64,000 nucleotides of DNA from Sipunculus nudus (lineage: Eukaryota; Annelida; Sipuncula; Golfingiida; Sipunculidae), in NCBI GenBank assembly GCA_026874595.1, contig CM049313.1, positions 80,406,659 through 80,470,658 on the forward strand, given 5' to 3'. Positions 3,752-58,953 of the stretch are shown here, in pieces (position 1 is the first letter of the stretch; each line of letters opens with the position of its first letter). A program made the position numbers and the translations under genes. The notes under the pieces were generated by a model. That model saw only the letters and a list, made by a program, of their open reading frames with translations. It searched no databases and had not been told where the DNA came from.

Positions 3752-3759
3752 TATAAAAT
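3752..3759 (+). promoter_or_regulatory. TATA-like string in the unit tail
   Basis: TATAAAAT occurs once near the end of each unit, about 75 bp before the next unit begins. It could serve as a core promoter for satellite transcripts. A TATA-like string is, however, frequent by chance in AT-rich DNA, and no initiator or downstream gene supports it. Confidence 0.12.
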
Positions 3760-14017: not shown

Positions 14018-15291
14018 CGGAATCAGAGATTTCGACAAGTATGTTGATCAGTTCCGTTTGTTTGTTTGTCTGTATGTCCCCGCTCTACAGGCCACAATTT
14101 TGCACCAATCGTCCTGAAACTTATAGATAGAGTGTATAATCGGTTCTTCTCGGAGCCTATTGTTTTTGGTCATGATCGGTCAAGGGTCAAGGTCAGGGTC
14201 ACCAAAAAGCTCAAAAACGGTTTTTTCTTCATACCTTCGTCAAAAATAGCCGTAGGCACTTAATCTGTAGCCCGTTTTATTTGCCACTGCATGGCCACTT
14301 CCAACACTGCAAAATTGCCTCATTTCGCTGTTACCATGGTTACGCAATTTTGGGGAGAAATCATGGAATTTCGTGATATTTTTCAAATTTGCAGCAATTT
14401 TACTGATTCTGAGATATTTTATGTAACATAAGAATATCTCGAAACGGGTTTTTCAGATTTTGGAAATGGCCGCCAGGGGGCGTTGCAGATGAAAAAACAT
14501 GAAAATTTGTTTTGGTGCTATACCTCCAGAACTATTAAACATTGGGCCATTTCCATCACAGCACCTTAAACTAGGGTCCATGGGCTTATTTTTGCGCATA
14601 GGTGCCGAAGTGCGCTATTGCCAGATTTCTCTATTTCTGGGGTAAAACCTTTGAAATTTGAAAATATGCAGTTTTTAGCTTCTAACTCTGTCAGTTTTTA
14701 TGCTAGAGAGGTCAAAATTTTTGCATCTTGTAGCCCTTGGTGAGTTCTCGGTGATCCAACCAAAAATCTTGCAAAATCTCGCACCGTTTCTCGTCGAATG
14801 AGATTTCGCGATTTCACGGTGACATGCCCTATAGGCCACAGATATGCAGGCATCCGTTTGAAACTGATACATGTTACGTCATACACTAATATCTCGAAAG
14901 CAATTGTTCAGTTTCTGGAAAATTACCGCAAGGGGGCGCTGCACTGCAACCCCGTACCTACTATCATTCTTTAAGCATATCTCCGAAACTACACATTTTA
15001 GGTACATAAACTGCACACCATATAAATTGGCGTTTCATGGCCTTTCTGCCCATGACCTCTTTTGTTTAATCATACACGGTCCCCACAGATTTTAGCAACT
15101 TTGTAAAAATTAAAACCCGCATGCACAAATACATATGCCATCACGCATGCATTCACGCGTTTTAGTATGAAAGACAGACACGCTTTCCCGTGACTGCAAA
15201 AATTATTGCGTTCGCCGTATAAAATAAGTGACCACAGGCACTCTTTGCGGGCCGGTTTGCCATTTCTGTCGCGTTATAGTTTATTGCTTGC
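14018..15291 (+). repeat. Satellite unit 12, first unit with G952C
   Basis: Position 14969 (offset 952) is C instead of G. This is the leftmost unit with the C allele. C is then found in units 15, 21, 23-25, 27-30, 32-36 and 38-46. Confidence 0.9.
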
Positions 15292-18200
15292 CGGAATCAG
15301 AGATTTCGACAAGTATGTTGATCAGTTCCGTTTGTTTGTTTGTCTGTATGTCCCCGCTCTACAGGCCACAATTTTGCACCAATCGTCCTGAAACTTATAG
15401 ATAGAGTGTATAATCGGTTCTTCTCGGAGCCTATTGTTTTTGGTCATGATCGGTCAAGGGTCAAGGTCAGGGTCACCAAAAAGCTCAAAAACGGTTTTTT
15501 CTTCATACCTTCGTCAAAAATAGCCGTAGGCACTTAATCTGTAGCCCGTTTTATTTGCCACTGCATGGCCACTTCCAACACTGCAAAATTGCCTCATTTC
15601 GCTGTTACCATGGTTACGCAATTTTGGGGAGAAATCATGGAATTTCGTGATATTTTTCAAATTTGCAGCAATTTTACTGATTCTGAGATATTTTATGTAA
15701 CATAAGAATATCTCGAAACGGGTTTTTCAGATTTTGGAAATGGCCGCCAGGGGGCGTTGCAGATGAAAAAACATGAAAATTTGTTTTGGTGCTATACCTC
15801 CAGAACTATTAAACATTGGGCCATTTCCATCACAGCACCTTAAACTAGGGTCCATGGGCTTATTTTTGCGCATAGGTGCCGAAGTGCGCTATTGCCAGAT
15901 TTCTCTATTTCTGGGGTAAAACCTTTGAAATTTGAAAATATGCAGTTTTTAGCTTCTAACTCTGTCAGTTTTTATGCTAGAGAGGTCAAAATTTTTGCAT
16001 CTTGTAGCCCTTGGTGAGTTCTCGGTGATCCAACCAAAAATCTTGCAAAATCTCGCACCGTTTCTCGTCGAATGAGATTTCGCGATTTCACGGTGACATG
16101 CCCTATAGGCCACAGATATGCAGGCATCCGTTTGAAACTGATACATGTTACGTCATACACTAATATCTCGAAAGCAATTGTTCAGTTTCTGGAAAATTAC
16201 CGCAAGGGGGCGCTGCACTGCAACCCCGTACCTACTATCATTGTTTAAGCATATCTCCGAAACTACACATTTTAGGTACATAAACTGCACACCATATAAA
16301 TTGGCGTTTCATGGCCTTTCTGCCCATGACCTCTTTTGTTTAATCATACACGGTCCCCACAGATTTTAGCAACTTTGTAAAAATTAAAACCCGCATGCAC
16401 AAATACATATGCCATCACGCATGCATTCACGCGTTTTAGTATGAAAGACAGACACGCTTTCCCGTGACTGCAAAAATTATTGCGTTCGCCGTATAAAATA
16501 AGTGACCACAGGCACTCTTTGCGGGCCGGTTTGCCATTTCTGTCGCGTTATAGTTTATTGCTTGCCGGAATCAGAGATTTCGACAAGTATGTTGATCAGT
16601 TCCGTTTGTTTGTTTGTCTGTATGTCCCCGCTCTACAGGCCACAATTTTGCACCAATCGTCCTGAAACTTATAGATAGAGTGTATAATCGGTTCTTCTCG
16701 GAGCCTATTGTTTTTGGTCATGATCGGTCAAGGGTCAAGGTCAGGGTCACCAAAAAGCTCAAAAACGGTTTTTTCTTCATACCTTCGTCAAAAATAGCCG
16801 TAGGCACTTAATCTGTAGCCCGTTTTATTTGCCACTGCATGGCCACTTCCAACACTGCAAAATTGCCTCATTTCGCTGTTACCATGGTTACGCAATTTTG
16901 GGGAGAAATCATGGAATTTCGTGATATTTTTCAAATTTGCAGCAATTTTACTGATTCTGAGATATTTTATGTAACATAAGAATATCTCGAAACGGGTTTT
17001 TCAGATTTTGGAAATGGCCGCCAGGGGGCGTTGCAGATGAAAAAACATGAAAATTTGTTTTGGTGCTATACCTCCAGAACTATTAAACATTGGGCCATTT
17101 CCATCACAGCACCTTAAACTAGGGTCCATGGGCTTATTTTTGCGCATAGGTGCCGAAGTGCGCTATTGCCAGATTTCTCTATTTCTGGGGTAAAACCTTT
17201 GAAATTTGAAAATATGCAGTTTTTAGCTTCTAACTCTGTCAGTTTTTATGCTAGAGAGGTCAAAATTTTTGCATCTTGTAGCCCTTGGTGAGTTCTCGGT
17301 GATCCAACCAAAAATCTTGCAAAATCTCGCACCGTTTCTCGTCGAATGAGATTTCGCGATTTCACGGTGACATGCCCTATAGGCCACAGATATGCAGGCA
17401 TCCGTTTGAAACTGATACATGTTACGTCATACACTAATATCTCGAAAGCAATTGTTCAGTTTCTGGAAAATTACCGCAAGGGGGCGCTGCACTGCAACCC
17501 CGTACCTACTATCATTGTTTAAGCATATCTCCGAAACTACACATTTTAGGTACATAAACTGCACACCATATAAATTGGCGTTTCATGGCCTTTCTGCCCA
17601 TGACCTCTTTTGTTTAATCATACACGGTCCCCACAGATTTTAGCAACTTTGTAAAAATTAAAACCCGCATGCACAAATACATATGCCATCACGCATGCAT
17701 TCACGCGTTTTAGTATGAAAGACAGACACGCTTTCCCGTGACTGCAAAAATTATTGCGTTCGCCGTATAAAATAAGTGACCACAGGCACTCTTTGCGGGC
17801 CGGTTTGCCATTTCTGTCGCGTTATAGTTTATTGCTTGCCGGAATCAGAGATTTCGACAAGTATGTTGATCAGTTCCGTTTGTTTGTTTGTCTGTATGTC
17901 CCCGCTCTACAGGCCACAATTTTGCACCAATCGTCCTGAAACTTATAGATAGAGTGTATAATCGGTTCTTCTCGGAGCCTATTGTTTTTGGTCATGATCG
18001 GTCAAGGGTCAAGGTCAGGGTCACCAAAAAGCTCAAAAACGGTTTTTTCTTCATACCTTCGTCAAAAATAGCCGTAGGCACTTAATCTGTAGCCCGTTTT
18101 ATTTGCCACTGCATGGCCACTTCCAACACTGCAAAATTGCCTCATTTCGCTGTTACCATGGTTACGCAATTTTGGGGAGAAATCATGGAATTTCGTGATA

Positions 18201-20387
18201 TTTTTCAAATTTGCAGCAATTTTACTGATTCTGAGATATTTTATGTAACATAAGAATATCTCGAAACGGGTTTTTCAGATTTTGGAAATGGCCGCCAGGG
18301 GGCGTTGCAGATGAAAAAACATGAAAATTTGTTTTGGTGCTATACCTCCAGAACTATTAAACATTGGGCCATTTCCATCACAGCACCTTAAACTAGGGTC
18401 CATGGGCTTATTTTTGCGCATAGGTGCCGAAGTGCGCTATTGCCAGATTTCTCTATTTCTGGGGTAAAACCTTTGAAATTTGAAAATATGCAGTTTTTAG
18501 CTTCTAACTCTGTCAGTTTTTATGCTAGAGAGGTCAAAATTTTTGCATCTTGTAGCCCTTGGTGAGTTCTCGGTGATCCAACCAAAAATCTTGCAAAATC
18601 TCGCACCGTTTCTCGTCGAATGAGATTTCGCGATTTCACGGTGACATGCCCTATAGGCCACAGATATGCAGGCATCCGTTTGAAACTGATACATGTTACG
18701 TCATACACTAATATCTCGAAAGCAATTGTTCAGTTTCTGGAAAATTACCGCAAGGGGGCGCTGCACTGCAACCCCGTACCTACTATCATTCTTTAAGCAT
18801 ATCTCCGAAACTACACATTTTAGGTACATAAACTGCACACCATATAAATTGGCGTTTCATGGCCTTTCTGCCCATGACCTCTTTTGTTTAATCATACACG
18901 GTCCCCACAGATTTTAGCAACTTTGTAAAAATTAAAACCCGCATGCACAAATACATATGCCATCACGCATGCATTCACGCGTTTTAGTATGAAAGACAGA
19001 CACGCTTTCCCGTGACTGCAAAAATTATTGCGTTCGCCGTATAAAATAAGTGACCACAGGCACTCTTTGCGGGCCGGTTTGCCATTTCTGTCGCGTTATA
19101 GTTTATTGCTTGCCGGAATCAGAGATTTCGACAAGTATGTTGATCAGTTCCGTTTGTTTGTTTGTCTGTATGTCCCCGCTCTACAGGCCACAATTTTGCA
19201 CCAATCGTCCTGAAACTTATAGATAGAGTGTATAATCGGTTCTTCTCGGAGCCTATTGTTTTTGGTCATGATCGGTCAAGGGTCAAGGTCAGGGTCACCA
19301 AAAAGCTCAAAAACGGTTTTTTCTTCATACCTTCGTCAAAAATAGCCGTAGGCACTTAATCTGTAGCCCGTTTTATTTGCCACTGCATGGCCACTTCCAA
19401 CACTGCAAAATTGCCTCATTTCGCTGTTACCATGGTTACGCAATTTTGGGGAGAAATCATGGAATTTCGTGATATTTTTCAAATTTGCAGCAATTTTACT
19501 GATTCTGAGATATTTTATGTAACATAAGAATATCTCGAAACGGGTTTTTCAGATTTTGGAAATGGCCGCCAGGGGGCGTTGCAGATGAAAAAACATGAAA
19601 ATTTGTTTTGGTGCTATACCTCCAGAACTATTAAACATTGGGCCATTTCCATCACAGCACCTTAAACTAGGGTCCATGGGCTTATTTTTGCGCATAGGTG
19701 CCGAAGTGCGCTATTGCCAGATTTCTCTATTTCTGGGGTAAAACCTTTGAAATTTGAAAATATGCAGTTTTTAGCTTCTAACTCTGTCAGTTTTTATGCT
19801 AGAGAGGTCAAAATTTTTGCATCTTGTAGCCCTTGGTGAGTTCTCGGTGATCCAACCAAAAATCTTGCAAAATCTCGCACCGTTTCTCGTCGAATGAGAT
19901 TTCGCGATTTCACGGTGACATGCCCTATAGGCCACAGATATGCAGGCATCCGTTTGAAACTGATACATGTTACGTCATACACTAATATCTCGAAAGCAAT
20001 TGTTCAGTTTCTGGAAAATTACCGCAAGGGGGCGCTGCACTGCAACCCCGTACCTACTATCATTGTTTAAGCATATCTCCGAAACTACACATTTTAGGTA
20101 CATAAACTGCACACCATATAAATTGGCGTTTCATGGCCTTTCTGCCCATGACCTCTTTTGTTTAATCATACACGGTCCCCACAGATTTTAGCAACTTTGT
20201 AAAAATTAAAACCCGCATGCACAAATACATATGCCATCACGCATGCATTCACGCGTTTTAGTATGAAAGACAGACACGCTTTCCCGTGACTGCAAAAATT
20301 ATTGCGTTCGCCGTATAAAATAAGTGACCACAGGCACTCTTTGCGGGCCGGTTTGCCATTTCTGTCGCGTTATAGTTTATTGCTTGC

Positions 20388-21661
20388 CGGAATCAGAGAT
20401 TTCGACAAGTATGTTGATCAGTTCCGTTTGTTTGTTTGTCTGTATGTCCCCGCTCTACAGGCCACAATTTTGCACCAATCGTCCTGAAACTTATAGATAG
20501 AGTGTATAATCGGTTCTTCTCGGAGCCTATTGTTTTTGGTCATGATCGGTCAAGGGTCAAGGTCAGGGTCACCAAAAAGCTCAAAAACGGTTTTTTCTTC
20601 ATACCTTCGTCAAAAATAGCCGTAGGCACTTAATCTGTAGCCCGTTTTATTTGCCACTGCATGGCCACTTCCAACACTGCAAAATTGCCTCATTTCGCTG
20701 TTACCATGGTTACGCAATTTTGGGGAGAAATCATGGAATTTCGTGATATTTTTCAAATTTGCAGCAATTTTACTGATTCTGAGATATTTTATGTAACATA
20801 AGAATATCTCGAAACGGGTTTTTCAGATTTTGGAAATGGCCGCCAGGGGGCGTTGCAGATGAAAAAACATGAAAATTTGTTTTGGTGCTATACCTCCAGA
20901 ACTATTAAACATTGGGCCATTTCCATCACAGCACCTTAAACTAGGGTCCATGGGCTTATTTTTGCGCATAGGTGCCGAAGTGCGCTATTGCCAGATTTCT
21001 CTATTTCTGGGGTAAAACCTTTGAAATTTGAAAATATGCAGTTTTTAGCTTCTAACTCTGTCAGTTTTTATCCTAGAGAGGTCAAAATTTTTGCATCTTG
21101 TAGCCCTTGGTGAGTTCTCGGTGATCCAACCAAAAATCTTGCAAAATCTCGCACCGTTTCTCGTCGAATGAGATTTCGCGATTTCACGGTGACATGCCCT
21201 ATAGGCCACAGATATGCAGGCATCCGTTTGAAACTGATACATGTTACGTCATACACTAATATCTCGAAAGCAATTGTTCAGTTTCTGGAAAATTACCGCA
21301 AGGGGGCGCTGCACTGCAACCCCGTACCTACTATCATTGTTTAAGCATATCTCCGAAACTACACATTTTAGGTACATAAACTGCACACCATATAAATTGG
21401 CGTTTCATGGCCTTTCTGCCCATGACCTCTTTTGTTTAATCATACACGGTCCCCACAGATTTTAGCAACTTTGTAAAAATTAAAACCCGCATGCACAAAT
21501 ACATATGCCATCACGCATGCATTCACGCGTTTTAGTATGAAAGACAGACACGCTTTCCCGTGACTGCAAAAATTATTGCGTTCGCCGTATAAAATAAGTG
21601 ACCACAGGCACTCTTTGCGGGCCGGTTTGCCATTTCTGTCGCGTTATAGTTTATTGCTTGC
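20388..21661 (+). repeat. Satellite unit 17, singleton G685C
   Basis: G to C at 21072 (offset 685). Not seen in any other unit. Confidence 0.85.
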
Positions 21662-22935
21662 CGGAATCAGAGATTTCGACAAGTATGTTGATCAGTTCCG
21701 TTTGTTTGTTTGTCTGTATGTCCCCGCTCTACAGGCCACAATTTTGCACCAATCGTCCTGAAACTTATAGATAGAGTGTATAATCGGTTCTTCTCGGAGC
21801 CTATTGTTTTTGGTCATGATCGGTCAAGGGTCAAGGTCAGGGTCACCAAAAAGCTCAAAAACGGTTTTTTCTTCATACCTTCGTCAAAAATAGCCGTAGG
21901 CACTTAATCTGTAGCCCGTTTTATTTGCCACTGCATGGCCACTTCCAACACTGCAAAATTGCCTCATTTCGCTGTTACCATGGTTACGCAATTTTGGGGA
22001 GAAATCATGGAATTTCGTGATATTTTTCAAATTTGCAGCAATTTTACTGATTCTGAGATATTTTATGTAACATAAGAATATCTCGAAACGGGTTTTTCAG
22101 ATTTTGGAAATGGCCGCCAGGGGGCGTTGCAGATGAAAAAACATGAAAATTTGTTTTGGTGCTATACCTCCAGAACTATTAAACATTGGGCCATTTCCAT
22201 CACAGCACCTTAAACTAGGGTCCATGGGCTTATTTTTGCGCATAGGTGCCGAAGTGCGCTATTGCCAGATTTCTCTATTTCTGGGGTAAAACCTTTGAAA
22301 TTTGAAAATATGCAGTTTTTAGCTTCTAACTCTGTCAGTTTTTATGCTAGAGAGGTCAAAATTTTTGCATCTTGTAGCCCTTGGTGAGTTCTCGGTGATC
22401 CAGCCAAAAATCTTGCAAAATCTCGCACCGTTTCTCGTCGAATGAGATTTCGCGATTTCACGGTGACATGCCCTATAGGCCACAGATATGCAGGCATCCG
22501 TTTGAAACTGATACATGTTACGTCATACACTAATATCTCGAAAGCAATTGTTCAGTTTCTGGAAAATTACCGCAAGGGGGCGCTGCACTGCAACCCCGTA
22601 CCTACTATCATTGTTTAAGCATATCTCCGAAACTACACATTTTAGGTACATAAACTGCACACCATATAAATTGGCGTTTCATGGCCTTTCTGCCCATGAC
22701 CTCTTTTGTTTAATCATACACGGTCCCCACAGATTTTAGCAACTTTGTAAAAATTAAAACCCGCATGCACAAATACATATGCCATCACGCATGCATTCAC
22801 GCGTTTTAGTATGAAAGACAGACACGCTTTCCCGTGACTGCAAAAATTATTGCGTTCGCCGTATAAAATAAGTGACCACAGGCACTCTTTGCGGGCCGGT
22901 TTGCCATTTCTGTCGCGTTATAGTTTATTGCTTGC
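21662..22935 (+). repeat. Satellite unit 18, variant A742G
   Basis: A to G at 22403 (offset 742), the only partner of the change in unit 9. Confidence 0.9.
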
Positions 22936-24209
22936 CGGAATCAGAGATTTCGACAAGTATGTTGATCAGTTCCGTTTGTTTGTTTGTCTGTATGTCCCCG
23001 CTCTACAGGCCACAATTTTGCACCAATCGTCCTGAAACTTATAGATAGAGTGTATAATCGGTTCTTCTCGGAGCCTATTGTTTTTGGTCATGATCGGTCA
23101 AGGGTCAAGGTCAGGGTCACCAAAAAGCTCAAAAACGGTTTTTTCTTCATACCTTCGTCAAAAATAGCCGTAGGCACTTAATCTGTAGCCCGTTTTATTT
23201 GCCACTGCATGGCCACTTCCAACACTGCAAAATTGCCTCATTTCGCTGTTACCATGGTTACGCAATTTTGGGGAGAAATCATGGAATTTCGTGATATTTT
23301 TCAAATTTGCAGCAATTTTACTGATTCTGAGATATTTTATGTAACATAAGAATATCTCGAAACGGGTTTTTCAGATTTTGGAAATGGCCGCCAGGGGGCG
23401 TTGCAGATGAAAAAACATGAAAATTTGTTTTGGTGCTATACCTCCAGAACTATTAAACATTGGGCCATTTCCATCACAGCACCTTAAACTAGGGTCCATG
23501 GGCTTATTTTTGCGCATAGGTGCCGAAGTGCGCTATTGCCAGATTTCTCTATTTCTGGGGTAAAACCTTTGAAATTTGAAAATATGCAGTTTTTAGCTTC
23601 TAACTCTGTCAGTTTTTATGCTAGAGAGGTCAAAATTTTTGCATCTTGTAGCCCTTGGTGAGTTCTCGGTGATCCAACCAAAAATCTTGCAAAATCTCGC
23701 ACCGTTTCTCGTCGAATGAGATTTCGCGATTTCACGGTGACATGCCCTATAGGCCACAGATATGCAGGCATCCGTTTGAAACTGATACATGTTACGTCAT
23801 ACACTAATATCTCGAAAGCAATTGTTCAGTTTCTGGAAAATTACCGCAAGGGGGCGCTGCACTGCAACCCCGTACCTACTATCATTGTTTAAGCATATCT
23901 CCGAAACTACACATTTTAGGTACATAAACTGCACACCATATAAATTGGCGTTTCATGGCCTTTCTGCCCATGACCTCTTTTGTTTAATCATACACGGTCC
24001 CCACAGATTTTAGCAACTTTGTAAAAATTAAAACCCGCATGCACAAATACATATGCCATCACGCATGCATTCACGCGTTTTAGTATGAAAGACAGACACG
24101 CTTTCCCGTGACTGCAAAAATTATTGCGTTCGCCGTATAAAATAAGTGACCACAGGCACTCTTTGCGGGCCGGTTTGCCATTTCTGTCGCGTTATAGTTT
24201 ATTGCTTGC

Positions 24210-25483
24210 CGGAATCAGAGATTTCGACAAGTATGTTGATCAGTTCCGTTTGTTTGTTTGTCTGTATGTCCCCGCTCTACAGGCCACAATTTTGCACCAA
24301 TCGTCCTGAAACTTATAGATAGAGTGTATAATCGGTTCTTCTCGGAGCCTATTGTTTTTGGTCATGATCGGTCAAGGGTCAAGGTCAGGGTCACCAAAAA
24401 GCTCAAAAACGGTTTTTTCTTCATACCTTCGTCAAAAATAGCCGTAGGCACTTAATCTGTAGCCCGTTTTATTTGCCACTGCATGGCCACTTCCAACACT
24501 GCAAAATTGCCTCATTTCGCTGTTACCATGGTTACGCAATTTTGGGGAGAAATCATGGAATTTCGTGATATTTTTCAAATTTGCAGCAATTTTACTGATT
24601 CTGAGATATTTTATGTAACATAAGAATATCTCGAAACGGGTTTTTCAGATTTTGGAAATGGCCGCCAGGGGGCGTTGCAGATGAAAAAACATGAAAATTT
24701 GTTTTGGTGCTATACCTCCAGAACTATTAAACATTGGGCCATTTCCATCACAGCACCTTAAACTAGGGTCCATGGGCTTATTTTTGCGCATAGGTGCCGA
24801 AGTGCGCTATTGCCAGATTTCTCTATTTCTGGGGTAAAACCTTTGAAATTTGAAAATATGCAGTTTTTAGCTTCTAACTCTGTCAGTTTTTATGCTAGAG
24901 AGGTCAAAATTTTTGCATCTTGTAGCCCTTGGTGAGTTCTCGGTGATCCAACCAAAAATCTTGCAAAATCTCGCACCGTTTCTCGTCGAATGAGATTTCG
25001 CGATTTCACGGTGACATGCCCTATAGGCCACAGATATGCAGGCATCCGTTTGAAACTGATACATGTTACGTCATACACTAATATCTCGAAAGCAATTGTT
25101 CAGTTTCTGGAAAATTACCGCAAGGGGGCGCTGCACTGCAACCCCGTACCTACTATCATTGTTTAAGCATATCTCCGAAACTACACATTTTAGGTACATA
25201 AACTGCACACCATATAAATTGGCGTTTCATGGCCTTTCTGCCCATGACCTCTTTTGTTTAATCATACACGGTCCCCACAGATTTTAGCAATTTTGTAAAA
25301 ATTAAAACCCGCATGCACAAATACATATGCCATCACGCATGCATTCACGCGTTTTAGTATGAAAGACAGACACGCTTTCCCGTGACTGCAAAAATTATTG
25401 CGTTCGCCGTATAAAATAAGTGACCACAGGCACTCTTTGCGGGCCGGTTTGCCATTTCTGTCGCGTTATAGTTTATTGCTTGC
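24210..25483 (+). repeat. Satellite unit 20, variant C1082T
   Basis: C to T at 25291 (offset 1082) on the G952 background. It lies nine units after the same change in unit 11. Confidence 0.9.
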
Positions 25484-26757
25484 CGGAATCAGAGATTTCG
25501 ACAAGTATGTTGATCAGTTCCGTTTGTTTGTTTGTCTGTATGTCCCCGCTCTACAGGCCACAATTTTGCACCAATCGTCCTGAAACTTATAGATAGAGTG
25601 TATAATCGGTTCTTCTCGGAGCCTATTGTTTTTGGTCATGATCGGTCAAGGGTCAAGGTCAGGGTCACCAAAAAGCTCAAAAACGGTTTTTTCTTCATAC
25701 CTTCGTCAAAAATAGCCGTAGGCACTTAATCTGTAGCCCGTTTTATTTGCCACTGCATGGCCACTTCCAACACTGCAAAATTGCCTCATTTCGCTGTTAC
25801 CATGGTTACGCAATTTTGGGGAGAAATCATGGAATTTCGTGATATTTTTCAAATTTGCAGCAATTTTACTGATTCTGAGATATTTTATGTAACATAAGAA
25901 TATCTCGAAACGGGTTTTTCAGATTTTGGAAATGGCCGCCAGGGGGCGTTGCAGATGAAAAAACATGAAAATTTGTTTTGGTGCTATACCTCCAGAACTA
26001 TTAAACATTGGGCCATTTCCATCACAGCACCTTAAACTAGGGTCCATGGGCTTATTTTTGCGCATAGGTGCCGAAGTGCGCTATTGCCAGATTTCTCTAT
26101 TTCTGGGGTAAAACCTTTGAAATTTGAAAATATGCAGTTTTTAGCTTCTAACTCTGTCAGTTTTTATGCTAGAGAGGTCAAAATTTTTGCATCTTGTAGC
26201 CCTTGGTGAGTTCTCGGTGATCCAACCAAAAATCTGGCAAAATCTCGCACCGTTTCTCGTCGAATGAGATTTCGCGATTTCACGGTGACATGCCCTATAG
26301 GCCACAGATATGCAGGCATCCGTTTGAAACTGATACATGTTACGTCATACACTAATATCTCGAAAGCAATTGTTCAGTTTCTGGAAAATTACCGCAAGGG
26401 GGCGCTGCACTGCAACCCCGTACCTACTATCATTCTTTAAGCATATCTCCGAAACTACACATTTTAGGTACATAAACTGCACACCATATAAATTGGCGTT
26501 TCATGGCCTTTCTGCCCATGACCTCTTTTGTTTAATCATACACGGTCCCCACAGATTTTAGCAACTTTGTAAAAATTAAAACCCGCATGCACAAATACAT
26601 ATGCCATCACGCATGCATTCACGCGTTTTAGTATGAAAGACAGACACGCTTTCCCGTGACTGCAAAAATTATTGCGTTCGCCGTATAAAATAAGTGACCA
26701 CAGGCACTCTTTGCGGGCCGGTTTGCCATTTCTGTCGCGTTATAGTTTATTGCTTGC
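25484..26757 (+). repeat. Satellite unit 21, G952C plus singleton T753G
   Basis: Has the C allele at offset 952, as unit 12 does nine units earlier. It also has a private T to G at 26236 (offset 753). Confidence 0.9.
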
Positions 26758-32700: not shown

Positions 32701-33127
32701 TGATACATGTTACGTCATACACTAATATCTCGAAAGCAATTGTTCAGTTTCTGGAAAATTACCGCAAGGGGGCGCTGCACTGCAACCCCGTACCTACTAT
32801 CATTGTTTAAGCATATCTCCGAAACTACACATTTTAGGTACATAAACTGCACACCATATAAATTGGCGTTTCATGGCCTTTCTGCCCATGACCTCTTTTG
32901 TTTAATCATACACGGTCCCCACAGATTTTAGCAACTTTGTAAAAATTAAAACCCGCATGCACAAATACATATGCCATCACGCATGCATTCACGCGTTTTA
33001 GTATGAAAGACAGACACGCTTTCCCGTGACTGCAAAAATTATTGCGTTCGCCGTATAAAATAAGTGACCACAGGCACTCTTTGCGGGCCGGTTTGCCATT
33101 TCTGTCGCGTTATAGTTTATTGCTTGC

Positions 33128-42045: not shown

Positions 42046-43319
42046 CGGAATCAGAGATTTCGACAAGTATGTTGATCAGTTCCGTTTGTTTGTTTGTCTG
42101 TATGTCCCCGCTCTACAGGCCACAATTTTGCACCAATCGTCCTGAAACTTATAGATAGAGTGTATAATCGGTTCTTCTCGGAGCCTATTGTTTTTGGTCA
42201 TGATCGGTCAAGGGTCAAGGTCAGGGTCACCAAAAAGCTCAAAAACGGTTTTTTCTTCATACCTTCGTCAAAAATAGCCGTAGGCACTTAATCTGTAGCC
42301 CGTTTTATTTGCCACTGCATGGCCACTTCCAACACTGCAAAATTGCCTCATTTCGCTGTTACCATGGTTACGCAATTTTGGGGAGAAATCATGGAATTTC
42401 GTGATATTTTTCAAATTTGCAGCAATTTTACTGATTCTGAGATATTTTATGTAACATAAGAATATCTCGAAACGGGTTTTTCAGATTTTGGAAATGGCCG
42501 CCAGGGGGCGTTGCAGATGAAAAAACATGAAAATTTGTTTTGGTGCTATACCTCCAGAACTATTAAACATTGGGCCATTTCCATCACAGCACCTTAAACT
42601 AGGGTCCATGGGCTTATTTTTGCGCATAGGTGCCGAAGTGCGCTATTGCCAGATTTCTCTATTTCTGGGGTAAAACCTTTGAAATTTGAAAATATGCAGT
42701 TTTTAGCTTCTAACTCTGTCAGTTTTTATGCTAGAAAGGTCAAAATTTTTGCATCTTGTAGCCCTTGGTGAGTTCTCGGTGATCCAACCAAAAATCTTGC
42801 AAAATCTCGCACCGTTTCTCGTCGAATGAGATTTCGCGATTTCACGGTGACATGCCCTATAGGCCACAGATATGCAGGCATCCGTTTGAAACTGATACAT
42901 GTTACGTCATACACTAATATCTCGAAAGCAATTGTTCAGTTTCTGGAAAATTACCGCAAGGGGGCGCTGCACTGCAACCCCGTACCTACTATCATTCTTT
43001 AAGCATATCTCCGAAACTACACATTTTAGGTACATAAACTGCACACCATATAAATTGGCGTTTCATGGCCTTTCTGCCCATGACCTCTTTTGTTTAATCA
43101 TACACGGTCCCCACAGATTTTAGCAACTTTGTAAAAATTAAAACCCGCATGCACAAATACATATGCCATCACGCATGCATTCACGCGTTTTAGTATGAAA
43201 GACAGACACGCTTTCCCGTGACTGCAAAAATTATTGCGTTCGCCGTATAAAATAAGTGACCACAGGCACTCTTTGCGGGCCGGTTTGCCATTTCTGTCGC
43301 GTTATAGTTTATTGCTTGC
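42046..43319 (+). repeat. Satellite unit 34, singleton G691A
   Basis: G to A at 42736 (offset 691), on the C952 background. Not seen elsewhere. Confidence 0.85.
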
Positions 43320-45867: not shown

Positions 45868-47141
45868 CGGAATCAGAGATTTCGACAAGTATGTTGATCA
45901 GTTCCGTTTGTTTGTTTGTCTGTATGTCCCCGCTCTACAGGCCACAATTTTGCACCAATCGTCCTGAAACTTATAGATAGAGTGTATAATCGGTTCTTCT
46001 CGGAGCCTATTGTTTTTGGTCATGATCGGTCAAGGGTCAAGGTCAGGGTCACCAAAAAGCTCAAAAACGGTTTTTTCTTCATACCTTCGTCAAAAATAGC
46101 CGTAGGCACTTAATCTGTAGCCCGTTTTATTTGCCACTGCATGGCCACTTCCAACACTGCAAAATTGCCTCATTTCGCTGTTACCATGGTTACGCAATTT
46201 TGGGGAGAAATCATGGAATTTCGTGATATTTTTCAAATTTGCAGCAATTTTACTGATTCTGAGATATTTTATGTAACATAAGAATATCTCGAAACGGGTT
46301 TTTCAGATTTTGGAAATGGCCGCCAGGGGGCGTTGCAGATGAAAAAACATGAAAATTTGTTTTGGTGCTATACCTCCAGAACTATTAAACATTGGGCCAT
46401 TTCCATCACAGCACCTTAAACTAGGGTCCATGGGCTTATTTTTGCGCATAGGTGCCGAAGTGCGCTATTGCCAGATTTCTCTATTTCTGGGGTAAAACCT
46501 TTGAAATTTGAAAATATGCAGTTTTTAGCTTCTAACTCTGTCAGTTTTTATGCTAGAGAGGTCAAAATTTTTGCATCTTGTAGCCCTTGGTGAGTTCTCG
46601 GTGATCCAACCAAAAATCTTGCAAAATCTCGCACCGTTTCTCGTCGAATGAGATTTCGCGATTTCACGGTGACATGCCCTATAGGCCACAGATATGCAGG
46701 CATCCGTTTGAAACTGATACATGTTACGTCATACACTAATATCTCGAAAGCAATTGTTCAGTTTCTGGAAAATTACCGCAAGGGGGCGCTGCACTGCAAC
46801 CCCGTACCTACTATCATTGTTTAAGCATATCTCCGAAACTACACATTTTAGGTACATAAACTGCACACCATATAAATTGGCGTTTCATGGCCTTTCTGCC
46901 CATGACCTCTTTTGTTTAATCATACACGGTCCCCACAGATTTTAGCAATTTTGTAAAAATTAAAACCCGCATGCACAAATACATATGCCATCACGCATGC
47001 ATTCACGCGTTTTAGTATGAAAGACAGACACGCTTTCCCGTGACTGCAAAAATTATTGCGTTCGCCGTATAAAATAAGTGACCACAGGCACTCTTTGCGG
47101 GCCGGTTTGCCATTTCTGTCGCGTTATAGTTTATTGCTTGC
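45868..47141 (+). repeat. Satellite unit 37, G952 + T1082 island
   Basis: T at 46949 (offset 1082) with G at offset 952. It is a lone G952 unit inside a stretch where all neighbours (32-36 and 38-46) carry C952, and it has the same haplotype as units 11 and 20. Confidence 0.9.
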
Positions 47142-50100
47142 CGGAATCAGAGATTTCGACAAGTATGTTGATCAGTTCCGTTTGTTTGTTTGTCTGTATG
47201 TCCCCGCTCTACAGGCCACAATTTTGCACCAATCGTCCTGAAACTTATAGATAGAGTGTATAATCGGTTCTTCTCGGAGCCTATTGTTTTTGGTCATGAT
47301 CGGTCAAGGGTCAAGGTCAGGGTCACCAAAAAGCTCAAAAACGGTTTTTTCTTCATACCTTCGTCAAAAATAGCCGTAGGCACTTAATCTGTAGCCCGTT
47401 TTATTTGCCACTGCATGGCCACTTCCAACACTGCAAAATTGCCTCATTTCGCTGTTACCATGGTTACGCAATTTTGGGGAGAAATCATGGAATTTCGTGA
47501 TATTTTTCAAATTTGCAGCAATTTTACTGATTCTGAGATATTTTATGTAACATAAGAATATCTCGAAACGGGTTTTTCAGATTTTGGAAATGGCCGCCAG
47601 GGGGCGTTGCAGATGAAAAAACATGAAAATTTGTTTTGGTGCTATACCTCCAGAACTATTAAACATTGGGCCATTTCCATCACAGCACCTTAAACTAGGG
47701 TCCATGGGCTTATTTTTGCGCATAGGTGCCGAAGTGCGCTATTGCCAGATTTCTCTATTTCTGGGGTAAAACCTTTGAAATTTGAAAATATGCAGTTTTT
47801 AGCTTCTAACTCTGTCAGTTTTTATGCTAGAGAGGTCAAAATTTTTGCATCTTGTAGCCCTTGGTGAGTTCTCGGTGATCCAACCAAAAATCTTGCAAAA
47901 TCTCGCACCGTTTCTCGTCGAATGAGATTTCGCGATTTCACGGTGACATGCCCTATAGGCCACAGATATGCAGGCATCCGTTTGAAACTGATACATGTTA
48001 CGTCATACACTAATATCTCGAAAGCAATTGTTCAGTTTCTGGAAAATTACCGCAAGGGGGCGCTGCACTGCAACCCCGTACCTACTATCATTCTTTAAGC
48101 ATATCTCCGAAACTACACATTTTAGGTACATAAACTGCACACCATATAAATTGGCGTTTCATGGCCTTTCTGCCCATGACCTCTTTTGTTTAATCATACA
48201 CGGTCCCCACAGATTTTAGCAACTTTGTAAAAATTAAAACCCGCATGCACAAATACATATGCCATCACGCATGCATTCACGCGTTTTAGTATGAAAGACA
48301 GACACGCTTTCCCGTGACTGCAAAAATTATTGCGTTCGCCGTATAAAATAAGTGACCACAGGCACTCTTTGCGGGCCGGTTTGCCATTTCTGTCGCGTTA
48401 TAGTTTATTGCTTGCCGGAATCAGAGATTTCGACAAGTATGTTGATCAGTTCCGTTTGTTTGTTTGTCTGTATGTCCCCGCTCTACAGGCCACAATTTTG
48501 CACCAATCGTCCTGAAACTTATAGATAGAGTGTATAATCGGTTCTTCTCGGAGCCTATTGTTTTTGGTCATGATCGGTCAAGGGTCAAGGTCAGGGTCAC
48601 CAAAAAGCTCAAAAACGGTTTTTTCTTCATACCTTCGTCAAAAATAGCCGTAGGCACTTAATCTGTAGCCCGTTTTATTTGCCACTGCATGGCCACTTCC
48701 AACACTGCAAAATTGCCTCATTTCGCTGTTACCATGGTTACGCAATTTTGGGGAGAAATCATGGAATTTCGTGATATTTTTCAAATTTGCAGCAATTTTA
48801 CTGATTCTGAGATATTTTATGTAACATAAGAATATCTCGAAACGGGTTTTTCAGATTTTGGAAATGGCCGCCAGGGGGCGTTGCAGATGAAAAAACATGA
48901 AAATTTGTTTTGGTGCTATACCTCCAGAACTATTAAACATTGGGCCATTTCCATCACAGCACCTTAAACTAGGGTCCATGGGCTTATTTTTGCGCATAGG
49001 TGCCGAAGTGCGCTATTGCCAGATTTCTCTATTTCTGGGGTAAAACCTTTGAAATTTGAAAATATGCAGTTTTTAGCTTCTAACTCTGTCAGTTTTTATG
49101 CTAGAGAGGTCAAAATTTTTGCATCTTGTAGCCCTTGGTGAGTTCTCGGTGATCCAACCAAAAATCTTGCAAAATCTCGCACCGTTTCTCGTCGAATGAG
49201 ATTTCGCGATTTCACGGTGACATGCCCTATAGGCCACAGATATGCAGGCATCCGTTTGAAACTGATACATGTTACGTCATACACTAATATCTCGAAAGCA
49301 ATTGTTCAGTTTCTGGAAAATTACCGCAAGGGGGCGCTGCACTGCAACCCCGTACCTACTATCATTCTTTAAGCATATCTCCGAAACTACACATTTTAGG
49401 TACATAAACTGCACACCATATAAATTGGCGTTTCATGGCCTTTCTGCCCATGACCTCTTTTGTTTAATCATACACGGTCCCCACAGATTTTAGCAACTTT
49501 GTAAAAATTAAAACCCGCATGCACAAATACATATGCCATCACGCATGCATTCACGCGTTTTAGTATGAAAGACAGACACGCTTTCCCGTGACTGCAAAAA
49601 TTATTGCGTTCGCCGTATAAAATAAGTGACCACAGGCACTCTTTGCGGGCCGGTTTGCCATTTCTGTCGCGTTATAGTTTATTGCTTGCCGGAATCAGAG
49701 ATTTCGACAAGTATGTTGATCAGTTCCGTTTGTTTGTTTGTCTGTATGTCCCCGCTCTACAGGCCACAATTTTGCACCAATCGTCCTGAAACTTATAGAT
49801 AGAGTGTATAATCGGTTCTTCTCGGAGCCTATTGTTTTTGGTCATGATCGGTCAAGGGTCAAGGTCAGGGTCACCAAAAAGCTCAAAAACGGTTTTTTCT
49901 TCATACCTTCGTCAAAAATAGCCGTAGGCACTTAATCTGTAGCCCGTTTTATTTGCCACTGCATGGCCACTTCCAACACTGCAAAATTGCCTCATTTCGC
50001 TGTTACCATGGTTACGCAATTTTGGGGAGAAATCATGGAATTTCGTGATATTTTTCAAATTTGCAGCAATTTTACTGATTCTGAGATATTTTATGTAACA

Positions 50101-53100
50101 TAAGAATATCTCGAAACGGGTTTTTCAGATTTTGGAAATGGCCGCCAGGGGGCGTTGCAGATGAAAAAACATGAAAATTTGTTTTGGTGCTATACCTCCA
50201 GAACTATTAAACATTGGGCCATTTCCATCACAGCACCTTAAACTAGGGTCCATGGGCTTATTTTTGCGCATAGGTGCCGAAGTGCGCTATTGCCAGATTT
50301 CTCTATTTCTGGGGTAAAACCTTTGAAATTTGAAAATATGCAGTTTTTAGCTTCTAACTCTGTCAGTTTTTATGCTAGAGAGGTCAAAATTTTTGCATCT
50401 TGTAGCCCTTGGTGAGTTCTCGGTGATCCAACCAAAAATCTTGCAAAATCTCGCACCGTTTCTCGTCGAATGAGATTTCGCGATTTCACGGTGACATGCC
50501 CTATAGGCCACAGATATGCAGGCATCCGTTTGAAACTGATACATGTTACGTCATACACTAATATCTCGAAAGCAATTGTTCAGTTTCTGGAAAATTACCG
50601 CAAGGGGGCGCTGCACTGCAACCCCGTACCTACTATCATTCTTTAAGCATATCTCCGAAACTACACATTTTAGGTACATAAACTGCACACCATATAAATT
50701 GGCGTTTCATGGCCTTTCTGCCCATGACCTCTTTTGTTTAATCATACACGGTCCCCACAGATTTTAGCAACTTTGTAAAAATTAAAACCCGCATGCACAA
50801 ATACATATGCCATCACGCATGCATTCACGCGTTTTAGTATGAAAGACAGACACGCTTTCCCGTGACTGCAAAAATTATTGCGTTCGCCGTATAAAATAAG
50901 TGACCACAGGCACTCTTTGCGGGCCGGTTTGCCATTTCTGTCGCGTTATAGTTTATTGCTTGCCGGAATCAGAGATTTCGACAAGTATGTTGATCAGTTC
51001 CGTTTGTTTGTTTGTCTGTATGTCCCCGCTCTACAGGCCACAATTTTGCACCAATCGTCCTGAAACTTATAGATAGAGTGTATAATCGGTTCTTCTCGGA
51101 GCCTATTGTTTTTGGTCATGATCGGTCAAGGGTCAAGGTCAGGGTCACCAAAAAGCTCAAAAACGGTTTTTTCTTCATACCTTCGTCAAAAATAGCCGTA
51201 GGCACTTAATCTGTAGCCCGTTTTATTTGCCACTGCATGGCCACTTCCAACACTGCAAAATTGCCTCATTTCGCTGTTACCATGGTTACGCAATTTTGGG
51301 GAGAAATCATGGAATTTCGTGATATTTTTCAAATTTGCAGCAATTTTACTGATTCTGAGATATTTTATGTAACATAAGAATATCTCGAAACGGGTTTTTC
51401 AGATTTTGGAAATGGCCGCCAGGGGGCGTTGCAGATGAAAAAACATGAAAATTTGTTTTGGTGCTATACCTCCAGAACTATTAAACATTGGGCCATTTCC
51501 ATCACAGCACCTTAAACTAGGGTCCATGGGCTTATTTTTGCGCATAGGTGCCGAAGTGCGCTATTGCCAGATTTCTCTATTTCTGGGGTAAAACCTTTGA
51601 AATTTGAAAATATGCAGTTTTTAGCTTCTAACTCTGTCAGTTTTTATGCTAGAGAGGTCAAAATTTTTGCATCTTGTAGCCCTTGGTGAGTTCTCGGTGA
51701 TCCAACCAAAAATCTTGCAAAATCTCGCACCGTTTCTCGTCGAATGAGATTTCGCGATTTCACGGTGACATGCCCTATAGGCCACAGATATGCAGGCATC
51801 CGTTTGAAACTGATACATGTTACGTCATACACTAATATCTCGAAAGCAATTGTTCAGTTTCTGGAAAATTACCGCAAGGGGGCGCTGCACTGCAACCCCG
51901 TACCTACTATCATTCTTTAAGCATATCTCCGAAACTACACATTTTAGGTACATAAACTGCACACCATATAAATTGGCGTTTCATGGCCTTTCTGCCCATG
52001 ACCTCTTTTGTTTAATCATACACGGTCCCCACAGATTTTAGCAACTTTGTAAAAATTAAAACCCGCATGCACAAATACATATGCCATCACGCATGCATTC
52101 ACGCGTTTTAGTATGAAAGACAGACACGCTTTCCCGTGACTGCAAAAATTATTGCGTTCGCCGTATAAAATAAGTGACCACAGGCACTCTTTGCGGGCCG
52201 GTTTGCCATTTCTGTCGCGTTATAGTTTATTGCTTGCCGGAATCAGAGATTTCGACAAGTATGTTGATCAGTTCCGTTTGTTTGTTTGTCTGTATGTCCC
52301 CGCTCTACAGGCCACAATTTTGCACCAATCGTCCTGAAACTTATAGATAGAGTGTATAATCGGTTCTTCTCGGAGCCTATTGTTTTTGGTCATGATCGGT
52401 CAAGGGTCAAGGTCAGGGTCACCAAAAAGCTCAAAAACGGTTTTTTCTTCATACCTTCGTCAAAAATAGCCGTAGGCACTTAATCTGTAGCCCGTTTTAT
52501 TTGCCACTGCATGGCCACTTCCAACACTGCAAAATTGCCTCATTTCGCTGTTACCATGGTTACGCAATTTTGGGGAGAAATCATGGAATTTCGTGATATT
52601 TTTCAAATTTGCAGCAATTTTACTGATTCTGAGATATTTTATGTAACATAAGAATATCTCGAAACGGGTTTTTCAGATTTTGGAAATGGCCGCCAGGGGG
52701 CGTTGCAGATGAAAAAACATGAAAATTTGTTTTGGTGCTATACCTCCAGAACTATTAAACATTGGGCCATTTCCATCACAGCACCTTAAACTAGGGTCCA
52801 TGGGCTTATTTTTGCGCATAGGTGCCGAAGTGCGCTATTGCCAGATTTCTCTATTTCTGGGGTAAAACCTTTGAAATTTGAAAATATGCAGTTTTTAGCT
52901 TCTAACTCTGTCAGTTTTTATGCTAGAGAGGTCAAAATTTTTGCATCTTGTAGCCCTTGGTGAGTTCTCGGTGATCCAACCAAAAATCTTGCAAAATCTC
53001 GCACCGTTTCTCGTCGAATGAGATTTCGCGATTTCACGGTGACATGCCCTATAGGCCACAGATATGCAGGCATCCGTTTGAAACTGATACATGTTACGTC

Positions 53101-56100
53101 ATACACTAATATCTCGAAAGCAATTGTTCAGTTTCTGGAAAATTACCGCAAGGGGGCGCTGCACTGCAACCCCGTACCTACTATCATTCTTTAAGCATAT
53201 CTCCGAAACTACACATTTTAGGTACATAAACTGCACACCATATAAATTGGCGTTTCATGGCCTTTCTGCCCATGACCTCTTTTGTTTAATCATACACGGT
53301 CCCCACAGATTTTAGCAACTTTGTAAAAATTAAAACCCGCATGCACAAATACATATGCCATCACGCATGCATTCACGCGTTTTAGTATGAAAGACAGACA
53401 CGCTTTCCCGTGACTGCAAAAATTATTGCGTTCGCCGTATAAAATAAGTGACCACAGGCACTCTTTGCGGGCCGGTTTGCCATTTCTGTCGCGTTATAGT
53501 TTATTGCTTGCCGGAATCAGAGATTTCGACAAGTATGTTGATCAGTTCCGTTTGTTTGTTTGTCTGTATGTCCCCGCTCTACAGGCCACAATTTTGCACC
53601 AATCGTCCTGAAACTTATAGATAGAGTGTATAATCGGTTCTTCTCGGAGCCTATTGTTTTTGGTCATGATCGGTCAAGGGTCAAGGTCAGGGTCACCAAA
53701 AAGCTCAAAAACGGTTTTTTCTTCATACCTTCGTCAAAAATAGCCGTAGGCACTTAATCTGTAGCCCGTTTTATTTGCCACTGCATGGCCACTTCCAACA
53801 CTGCAAAATTGCCTCATTTCGCTGTTACCATGGTTACGCAATTTTGGGGAGAAATCATGGAATTTCGTGATATTTTTCAAATTTGCAGCAATTTTACTGA
53901 TTCTGAGATATTTTATGTAACATAAGAATATCTCGAAACGGGTTTTTCAGATTTTGGAAATGGCCGCCAGGGGGCGTTGCAGATGAAAAAACATGAAAAT
54001 TTGTTTTGGTGCTATACCTCCAGAACTATTAAACATTGGGCCATTTCCATCACAGCACCTTAAACTAGGGTCCATGGGCTTATTTTTGCGCATAGGTGCC
54101 GAAGTGCGCTATTGCCAGATTTCTCTATTTCTGGGGTAAAACCTTTGAAATTTGAAAATATGCAGTTTTTAGCTTCTAACTCTGTCAGTTTTTATGCTAG
54201 AGAGGTCAAAATTTTTGCATCTTGTAGCCCTTGGTGAGTTCTCGGTGATCCAACCAAAAATCTTGCAAAATCTCGCACCGTTTCTCGTCGAATGAGATTT
54301 CGCGATTTCACGGTGACATGCCCTATAGGCCACAGATATGCAGGCATCCGTTTGAAACTGATACATGTTACGTCATACACTAATATCTCGAAAGCAATTG
54401 TTCAGTTTCTGGAAAATTACCGCAAGGGGGCGCTGCACTGCAACCCCGTACCTACTATCATTCTTTAAGCATATCTCCGAAACTACACATTTTAGGTACA
54501 TAAACTGCACACCATATAAATTGGCGTTTCATGGCCTTTCTGCCCATGACCTCTTTTGTTTAATCATACACGGTCCCCACAGATTTTAGCAACTTTGTAA
54601 AAATTAAAACCCGCATGCACAAATACATATGCCATCACGCATGCATTCACGCGTTTTAGTATGAAAGACAGACACGCTTTCCCGTGACTGCAAAAATTAT
54701 TGCGTTCGCCGTATAAAATAAGTGACCACAGGCACTCTTTGCGGGCCGGTTTGCCATTTCTGTCGCGTTATAGTTTATTGCTTGCCGGAATCAGAGATTT
54801 CGACAAGTATGTTGATCAGTTCCGTTTGTTTGTTTGTCTGTATGTCCCCGCTCTACAGGCCACAATTTTGCACCAATCGTCCTGAAACTTATAGATAGAG
54901 TGTATAATCGGTTCTTCTCGGAGCCTATTGTTTTTGGTCATGATCGGTCAAGGGTCAAGGTCAGGGTCACCAAAAAGCTCAAAAACGGTTTTTTCTTCAT
55001 ACCTTCGTCAAAAATAGCCGTAGGCACTTAATCTGTAGCCCGTTTTATTTGCCACTGCATGGCCACTTCCAACACTGCAAAATTGCCTCATTTCGCTGTT
55101 ACCATGGTTACGCAATTTTGGGGAGAAATCATGGAATTTCGTGATATTTTTCAAATTTGCAGCAATTTTACTGATTCTGAGATATTTTATGTAACATAAG
55201 AATATCTCGAAACGGGTTTTTCAGATTTTGGAAATGGCCGCCAGGGGGCGTTGCAGATGAAAAAACATGAAAATTTGTTTTGGTGCTATACCTCCAGAAC
55301 TATTAAACATTGGGCCATTTCCATCACAGCACCTTAAACTAGGGTCCATGGGCTTATTTTTGCGCATAGGTGCCGAAGTGCGCTATTGCCAGATTTCTCT
55401 ATTTCTGGGGTAAAACCTTTGAAATTTGAAAATATGCAGTTTTTAGCTTCTAACTCTGTCAGTTTTTATGCTAGAGAGGTCAAAATTTTTGCATCTTGTA
55501 GCCCTTGGTGAGTTCTCGGTGATCCAACCAAAAATCTTGCAAAATCTCGCACCGTTTCTCGTCGAATGAGATTTCGCGATTTCACGGTGACATGCCCTAT
55601 AGGCCACAGATATGCAGGCATCCGTTTGAAACTGATACATGTTACGTCATACACTAATATCTCGAAAGCAATTGTTCAGTTTCTGGAAAATTACCGCAAG
55701 GGGGCGCTGCACTGCAACCCCGTACCTACTATCATTCTTTAAGCATATCTCCGAAACTACACATTTTAGGTACATAAACTGCACACCATATAAATTGGCG
55801 TTTCATGGCCTTTCTGCCCATGACCTCTTTTGTTTAATCATACACGGTCCCCACAGATTTTAGCAACTTTGTAAAAATTAAAACCCGCATGCACAAATAC
55901 ATATGCCATCACGCATGCATTCACGCGTTTTAGTATGAAAGACAGACACGCTTTCCCGTGACTGCAAAAATTATTGCGTTCGCCGTATAAAATAAGTGAC
56001 CACAGGCACTCTTTGCGGGCCGGTTTGCCATTTCTGTCGCGTTATAGTTTATTGCTTGCCGGAATCAGAGATTTCGACAAGTATGTTGATCAGTTCCGTT

Positions 56101-57333
56101 TGTTTGTTTGTCTGTATGTCCCCGCTCTACAGGCCACAATTTTGCACCAATCGTCCTGAAACTTATAGATAGAGTGTATAATCGGTTCTTCTCGGAGCCT
56201 ATTGTTTTTGGTCATGATCGGTCAAGGGTCAAGGTCAGGGTCACCAAAAAGCTCAAAAACGGTTTTTTCTTCATACCTTCGTCAAAAATAGCCGTAGGCA
56301 CTTAATCTGTAGCCCGTTTTATTTGCCACTGCATGGCCACTTCCAACACTGCAAAATTGCCTCATTTCGCTGTTACCATGGTTACGCAATTTTGGGGAGA
56401 AATCATGGAATTTCGTGATATTTTTCAAATTTGCAGCAATTTTACTGATTCTGAGATATTTTATGTAACATAAGAATATCTCGAAACGGGTTTTTCAGAT
56501 TTTGGAAATGGCCGCCAGGGGGCGTTGCAGATGAAAAAACATGAAAATTTGTTTTGGTGCTATACCTCCAGAACTATTAAACATTGGGCCATTTCCATCA
56601 CAGCACCTTAAACTAGGGTCCATGGGCTTATTTTTGCGCATAGGTGCCGAAGTGCGCTATTGCCAGATTTCTCTATTTCTGGGGTAAAACCTTTGAAATT
56701 TGAAAATATGCAGTTTTTAGCTTCTAACTCTGTCAGTTTTTATGCTAGAGAGGTCAAAATTTTTGCATCTTGTAGCCCTTGGTGAGTTCTCGGTGATCCA
56801 ACCAAAAATCTTGCAAAATCTCGCACCGTTTCTCGTCGAATGAGATTTCGCGATTTCACGGTGACATGCCCTATAGGCCACAGATATGCAGGCATCCGTT
56901 TGAAACTGATACATGTTACGTCATACACTAATATCTCGAAAGCAATTGTTCAGTTTCTGGAAAATTACCGCAAGGGGGCGCTGCACTGCAACCCCGTACC
57001 TACTATCATTCTTTAAGCATATCTCCGAAACTACACATTTTAGGTACATAAACTGCACACCATATAAATTGGCGTTTCATGGCCTTTCTGCCCATGACCT
57101 CTTTTGTTTAATCATACACGGTCCCCACAGATTTTAGCAACTTTGTAAAAATTAAAACCCGCATGCACAAATACATATGCCATCACGCATGCATTCACGC
57201 GTTTTAGTATGAAAGACAGACACGCTTTCCCGTGACTGCAAAAATTATTGCGTTCGCCGTATAAAATAAGTGACCACAGGCACTCTTTGCGGGCCGGTTT
57301 GCCATTTCTGTCGCGTTATAGTTTATTGCTTGC

Positions 57334-58605
57334 CGGAATCAGAGATTTCGACAAGTATGTTGATCAGTTCCGTTTGTTTGTTTGTCTGTATGTCCCCGCT
57401 CTACAGGCCACAATTTTGCACCAATCGTCCTGAAACTTATAGATAGAGTGTATAATCGGTTCTTCTCGGAGCCTATTGTTTTTGGTCATGATCGGTCAAG
57501 GGTCAAGGTCAGGGTCACCAAAAAGCTCAAAAACGGTTTTTTCTTCATACCTTCGTCAAAAATAGCCGTAGGCACTTAATCTGTAGCCCGTTTTATTTGC
57601 CACTGCATGGCCACTTCCAACACTGCAAAATTGCCTCATTTCGCTGTTACCATGGTTACGCAATTTTGGGGAGAAATCATGGAATTTCGTGATATTTTTC
57701 AAATTTGCAGCAATTTTACTGATTCTGAGATATTTTATGTAACATAAGAATATCTCGAAACGGGTTTTTCAGATTTTGGAAATGGCCGCCAGGGGCGTTG
57801 CAGATGAAAAAACATGAAAATTTGTTTGGTGCTATACCTCCAGAACTATTAAACATTGGGCCATTTCCATCACAGCACCTTAAACTAGGGTCCATGGGCT
57901 TATTTTTGCGCATAGGTGCCGAAGTGCGCTATTGCCAGATTTCTCTATTTCTGGGGTAAAACCTTTGAAATTTGAAAATATGCAGTTTTTAGCTTCTAAC
58001 TCTGTCAGTTTTTATGCTAGAGAGGTCAAAATTTTTGCATCTTGTAGCCCTTGGTGAGTTCTCGGTGATCCAACCAAAAATCTTGCAAAATCTCGCACCG
58101 TTTCTCGTCGAATGAGATTTCGCGATTTCACGGTGACATGCCCTATAGGCCACAGATATGCAGGCATCCGTTTGAAACTGATACATGTTACGTCATACAC
58201 TAATATCTCGAAAGCAATTGTTCAGTTTCTGGAAAATTACCGCAAGGGGGCGCTGCACTGCAACCCCGTACCTACTATCATTCTTTAAGCATATCTCCGA
58301 AACTACACATTTTAGGTACATAAACTGCACACCATATAAATTGGCGTTTCATGGCCTTTCTGCCCATGACCTCTTTTGTTTAATCATACACGGTCCCCAC
58401 AGATTTTAGCAACTTTGTAAAAATTAAAACCCGCATGCACAAATACATATGCCATCACGCATGCATTCACGCGTTTTAGTATGAAAGACAGACACGCTTT
58501 CCCGTGACTGCAAAAATTATTGCGTTCGCCGTATAAAATAAGTGACCACAGGCACTCTTTGCGGGCCGGTTTGCCATTTCTGTCGCGTTATAGTTTATTG
58601 CTTGC
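57334..58605 (+). repeat. Satellite unit 46, two one-base deletions
   Basis: The unit is 1272 bp. One G is missing from the G5 run of the first CTCF-like core (near 57791-57796), and one T is missing from a T-run near 57823. The losses open a spurious minus-strand frame (57716-57913). This is the last complete unit before the gap. Confidence 0.9.
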
Positions 58606-58953
58606 CGGAATCAGAGATTTCGACAAGTATGTTGATCAGTTCCGTTTGTTTGTTTGTCTGTATGTCCCCGCTCTACAGGCCACAATTTTGCACCAATCGT
58701 CCTGAAACTTATAGATAGAGTGTATAATCGGTTCTTCTCGGAGGCCTATTGTTTTTGGTCATGATCGGTCAAGGGTCAAGGTCAGGGTCACCAAAAAGCT
58801 CAAAAACGGTTTTTTTCTTCATACCTTCGTCAAAAATAGCCGTAGGCACTTAATCTGTAGCCCGTTTTATTTGCCACTGCATGGCCACTTCCAACACTGC
58901 AAAATTGCCTCATTTCGCTGTTACCATGGTTACGCAATTTTGGGGAGAAATCA
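58606..58953 (+). repeat. Satellite unit 47, truncated by the assembly gap
   Basis: Only the first 348 bases are present. There is an extra G at about 58743 and an extra T in the T-run around 58810-58816. It ends inside the X-box block, before the first CTCF-like core. Confidence 0.95.

Follow-up and report, generated by a model that had tools for sequence, protein, structure and literature searches.

The window analysed here, a stretch of 64,000 nucleotides (C8:80406659-80470658), lies on a contig of 80.87 Mb, some 0.4 Mb short of its end, in a genome assembly of 1.43 Gb and 153 contigs. It contains a tandem array with a unit of 1274 bp, and the same contig carries this array on for another 1922 bp beyond the left edge of the window. 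The sequence contig that runs from gap to gap measures 60,875 bp (60.9 kb) and consists solely of this array. Units were delimited by cutting the window at a unit anchor, and positions within a unit are given below as offsets. The features of the locus are as follows (window coordinates unless the contig is named).

C8:80404237-80404736, left assembly gap of 500 N, upstream of the window
1..58953, + strand, 1274-bp satellite array of 46 full units and a 348-bp partial 47th unit, ending at a 500-N gap
952..58283, + strand, polymorphic site at offset 952 of each unit, with G (ancestral) in 22 units and C (derived) in 24
952..13695, + strand, units 1-11, all G at offset 952 (as are two units upstream of the window)
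10196..28031, + strand, possible segmental duplication of nine units, units 9-13 and 18-22, with 742G, 1082T and 952C in the same order
14969..46819, + strand, mixed zone, units 12-37
46949..46949, + strand, 1082T in unit 37, the sole G unit among units 32-46
48093..58283, + strand, units 38-46, all C at offset 952
58954..59453, no strand, right assembly gap of 500 N

All full units are 1274 bp long, except units 1 (1275 bp), 2 (1276 bp) and 46 (1272 bp). No open frame of at least 90 amino acids is present in the unit, which is therefore regarded as a non-coding satellite; near-identical, non-coding units that follow each other head to tail in a long array are what is expected of this class of repeat. 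The array was missed by Tandem Repeats Finder because of a period limit of 500, and no published satellite of 1274 bp was found in the literature searched. Among the 46 full units, substitutions are found at six sites, and the only other variation is a small number of homopolymer-type indels. The minor substitutions occur at offset 742 (units 9 and 18) and offset 1082 (units 11, 20, 27 and 37), with singletons at 685 (unit 17), 691 (unit 34) and 753 (unit 21), and offset 952 is the sole site with a common minor allele. Each unit also carries two CTCF-like motifs on the same strand, CCGCCAGGGGGCG and CCGCAAGGGGGCG, at offsets 453 and 909, which sit within a pair of internal repeats of about 80 bp that are 74% identical.

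To the right of the gap (59477-64000 of the window and beyond) lies a tandem repeat of 6.24 kb with 99.5% identity between copies, in which a diverged form of the 1274-bp unit and an inner array of 5.8 copies of 364 bp are found. The same 6.24-kb repeat is found in inverted orientation in the contig before the left gap, which places the satellite contig between mirrored repeats as scaffolded. On contig C9, the satellite meets the 6.24-kb repeat without a gap.

At offset 952, units 1-46 read GGGGGGGGGGGCGGCGGGGGCGCCCGCCCCGCCCCCGCCCCCCCCC, with C in units 12, 15, 21, 23-25, 27-30, 32-36 and 38-46. The count of 24 C and 22 G given in an earlier note on this DNA was reproduced exactly when the units were read again. 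The C-bearing part of the array had been placed at 14969-58271; the first C is indeed at 14969, whereas the last is at 58283, 12 bases further to the right. The earlier note also called for units beyond the window, and the two additional 952 sites in the upstream part of the contig are both G. The order of the two bases is non-random by the runs test that it proposed (14 runs against 24 expected, permutation p = 0.002). The trend along the array is strong (Spearman 0.71, p = 2.4e-8; Mann-Whitney p = 1.7e-6) and was matched in none of 200,000 permutations, so that a random order of G and C is rejected by the Spearman, Mann-Whitney, runs and permutation tests alike. A sticky Markov chain with equal correlation between neighbours reached the observed trend in 0.05% of trials.

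A logistic cline describes the data better than a constant frequency of C by 27 AIC units. The cline (AIC 38.5) is barely separable from a model of two blocks with one step (41.3) or three blocks with two steps (41.0), and only a weak trend is left within the mixed zone (p about 0.03-0.06), so that two blocks that meet in a mixed boundary describe the site as well as a gradient. An all-G block, a mixed zone and an all-C block are thus as good a description of offset 952 as a gradient is.

The polarity of the change follows from comparison with other arrays of the same satellite. In seven of these (two on C1, one each on C2, C6, C9 and C10, and one on C8 at 54.4 Mb) every full unit has G at offset 952; one degenerate edge unit on C6 has A. 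A word of 24 bases around the site, with either base allowed, has 1,731 matches in the 1.43-Gb genome, and the 24 matches to its C version are all inside the window array. Since the other arrays that were read carry G and C is private to the window array, G is ancestral and C derived. The past direction of the change, from G to C, is known from these other arrays and not from the cline. The G to C change arose in the window array, presumably once, and was then copied. That C was instead produced again and again by mutation of a hypermutable site has almost no chance of being correct: beyond the number of C units nothing speaks for it, whereas the change is a transversion and lies outside CpG context, C occurs in none of the approximately 1,700 other copies of the surrounding word and the order of G and C is strongly non-random. 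Recurrent mutation is rejected by the counts of the 24-base word across the genome.

Additional evidence for copying between units comes from similarity as a function of distance and from the linkage of rare variants. In the window array, units 1-3 apart differ at offset 952 in a fraction of 0.26 of the pairs, and units 31-47 apart in 0.90. Offsets 952 and 1082 are 130 bp apart and all four combinations (GC, CC, GT and CT) are seen, as recombination between units would leave them, although a second mutation recurring at 1082 could in principle have done so too. Unit 37 shares its G-T haplotype with units 11 and 20, which suggests that it is a copied haplotype and not a reversion. The units of the array are also marked by private bases at offsets 590, 620, 659, 952 and 1007, and share those at 913 and 958 only with the array C8b; at 958, G is confined to the window array and the small array that C8 carries at 54.4 Mb. 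Both the private bases and a tree of units show that units within an array are more alike than units of different arrays. The arrays C2 and C1a are each made of two lineages, and there this likeness holds by block and not always by array.

Similar to the window array, a gapless array of 51 units of the same satellite (C1:65815001-65885000) has neighbouring units that are more alike than distant ones, with 1.6 differences at 1-3 units and 5.9 at 31-50 units. A sharp front is present between units 34 and 35, where five sites change together or nearly so, and a block of 13 units appears to be duplicated, with several sites repeating at that offset. This array behaves like the window array, more clearly, and is the better system for measuring exchange. 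The arrays on C2 and on C1 at 84.3 Mb are also built of blocks, and ordered blocks in the C1 and C2 arrays indicate that spatially ordered variation is common in this satellite. The C2 locus (C2:47000-58778) consists of two adjacent arrays of different lineages about 51 bp apart, in which four units group with those of C9 and C10 and five with those of C6 and the window. Counted by the single 24-base word, copies of the satellite number at least 1,731, and its arrays are spread over many chromosomes; among the matches listed it is concentrated on C1 at 65.2-65.9 Mb, a location that is possibly pericentromeric.

The spread of a variant was simulated in 100-unit arrays by letting a single new variant drift under symmetric exchange, and stretches of 48 units with approximately half of the units derived were scored. 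Gene conversion with a mean reach of 2.5-5 units gave the observed trend together with 11-17 runs in about 1.5-4% of the intermediate-frequency states, and duplication and deletion of blocks with a mean size of 2-4 units gave the observed trend and runs in about 1.5-4% of states. A neutral model of local exchange can thus reproduce the statistics, although even the best models arrive at the exact joint statistic in no more than a few percent of the simulated states. Exchange between nearest neighbours only never produced the observed combination and left a sharp step with 2-3 runs and no mixed zone, by which it is ruled out as the main mode. Conversion across the whole array or with a mean reach of 20 units never did so either, the array-wide form leading to random order, and array-wide long-range exchange is ruled out as the main mode. 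Of the modes simulated, those that reach over a few units are the only ones to yield both the trend and the mixed zone.

We therefore consider it likely that unbiased local exchange spread C across neighbouring units, with the signal coming mostly from one common site. A G to C change at offset 952 would have arisen in one unit of the C8 array, and unbiased local recombination, by unequal sister-chromatid exchange, gene conversion or both, would then have copied it to neighbouring units, typically over distances of a few units (about 3-5 kb). The outcome would be the arrangement seen: one side of the resolved stretch has only C, the other side has none, and both bases occur in the part between.

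The route of exchange may be of more than one kind. That the order was formed mainly by duplication and deletion of multi-unit segments, through unequal crossing-over with large shifts of register, rather than by conversion of single units, is a possibility of some weight, though we doubt it. In the window array, 742G, 1082T and two 952C units recur at an offset of nine units, which is suggestive of a duplication joining units 9-13 and 18-22; taken by itself the match is weak, with P about 0.06, or about 0.3 (0.30) under another null. A strict higher-order repeat of nine units is rejected, as the pattern does not go on repeating after one copy and is weakly supported. The 13-unit duplication in the C1 array is clear over several sites, and duplication of small blocks fits the simulations as well as conversion does, whereas pure duplication with a mean size of nine rarely gives the trend (the observed combination in 0.03% of states). 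Segmental duplication and single-unit conversion probably both act.

The earlier note attributed the order to local unequal exchange and gene conversion, a reading that agrees with the decay of similarity with distance, the simulations and the derived, private state of C. Its further proposal, that the array has a readable direction of homogenisation, is not supported, since exchange that is symmetric and without bias, at a mean reach of about 2.5-4 units, suffices in simulation, and simulated states resembling the observed one, when run onward, fixed the derived base in only 29-47% of cases. With fixation no more frequent than this, a snapshot cannot tell an advancing C from a retreating one. 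A biased front in which the derived C wins exchanges with its neighbours and advances from the right is accordingly very improbable. C is derived, holds one side of the array and has reached half of the resolved units, as such a front would have it, but unbiased exchange gives an equal picture and makes the bias superfluous. Both G to C and C to G are strong-to-strong changes, so that GC-biased conversion would favour neither base. The order and orientation of sequence contigs across the 500-N gaps are presumably a scaffolding decision; direction relative to the chromosome is therefore not established.

Unbiased local exchange presupposes a contig that is faithful to the chromosome, which we infer it to be. 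The first rare variant lies 12.9 kb from the left end of the contig and the last 12.0 kb from its right end; identical units form their two longest runs near these ends, and homopolymer-type indels are confined to the outer units (-1 to 2, 46 and 47). Such ends would be expected of an assembly limited by read length, which comes to a halt once a stretch of identical units is longer than its reads. Beyond the contig, further units are probably all-G on the left and all-C on the right, in agreement with the continuation of the trend that the earlier note predicted, and the visible stretch is probably just the resolvable junction of a G block with a C block, selected by assembly. An assembly mosaic, in which the contig switches between an all-G and an all-C haplotype, or between such parts of a longer array, and in which a majority-vote consensus or mis-overlapping reads made the mixed zone, is unlikely, judging from the contig alone. 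The position of the contig wholly within the array between two 500-N gaps would allow such a mosaic, as would the restriction of indels to the outer units, and the assembly has no second copy of the window array elsewhere. On the other hand, units 3-45 are free of indels, which suggests an accurate consensus, the mixed zone contains consistently linked rare variants (G with 1082T in units 11, 20 and 37), and the gapless C1 array has a comparable spatial structure. Since a long-read assembler resolves only stretches that are still variable, block boundaries are over-represented in such contigs, and apparent clines in satellite contigs should be read as a selected view.

Regarding the nature of the unit, a possible resemblance to Helentrons was noted. 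In the oyster Crassostrea gigas, non-autonomous Helentrons (Cg_HINE) with GTCY microsatellites carry satellite arrays (PMC7492417). Similar to Cg_HINE, the satellite described here forms short and long arrays scattered over chromosomes, and its array flanks may recall the left end of such elements, where a subterminal inverted repeat and a hairpin precede a GTCY-type microsatellite. Folding of the unit junction TTGCTTGCCGGAATCAGAGATTTCGACAAG has a z of -3.0, and TTTG/TGTC repeats come after it; the flanks of the C9 array contain a stronger hairpin (z -4.3; TTGCTTGCCGGAAATCTTCGATTTTCGCAAGCA) and then TGTC/TTTG repeats. In a search for the 3' subterminal repeat and palindrome of the right end, two candidate stretches of the unit folded no better than shuffled sequences (z -0.9 and 0.7). 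Unlike the oyster satellite Cg170, which is about 170 bp by its name, the unit here is 1274 bp. As a lead only, the 1274-bp unit may be a whole non-autonomous Helentron-like element in tandem.

The window array catches a new variant midway through its spread in a tandem array, cleanly and with known polarity, and, read together with the fully resolved sister array on C1, it permits the reach of exchange to be roughly estimated, at a few units. The classical unequal crossing-over model of satellite homogenisation is reportedly that of Smith (1976); as in that model, random local exchange suffices in our simulations for homogeneous blocks with mixed boundaries, and no difference between the window array and the model was seen. 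In the histone array of Drosophila melanogaster, units of similar type lie together and homogenisation acts over local tracts (PMC12400953). The window array resembles this cluster in that unit types cluster, difference grows with distance and exchange tracts are local. Whereas the histone cluster has a 5-kb gene-cluster unit and was compared between strains, the array described here is a non-coding satellite in a single assembly, with a signal mostly from one site. The window array is a case of ordinary concerted evolution and a clear example of a known process.
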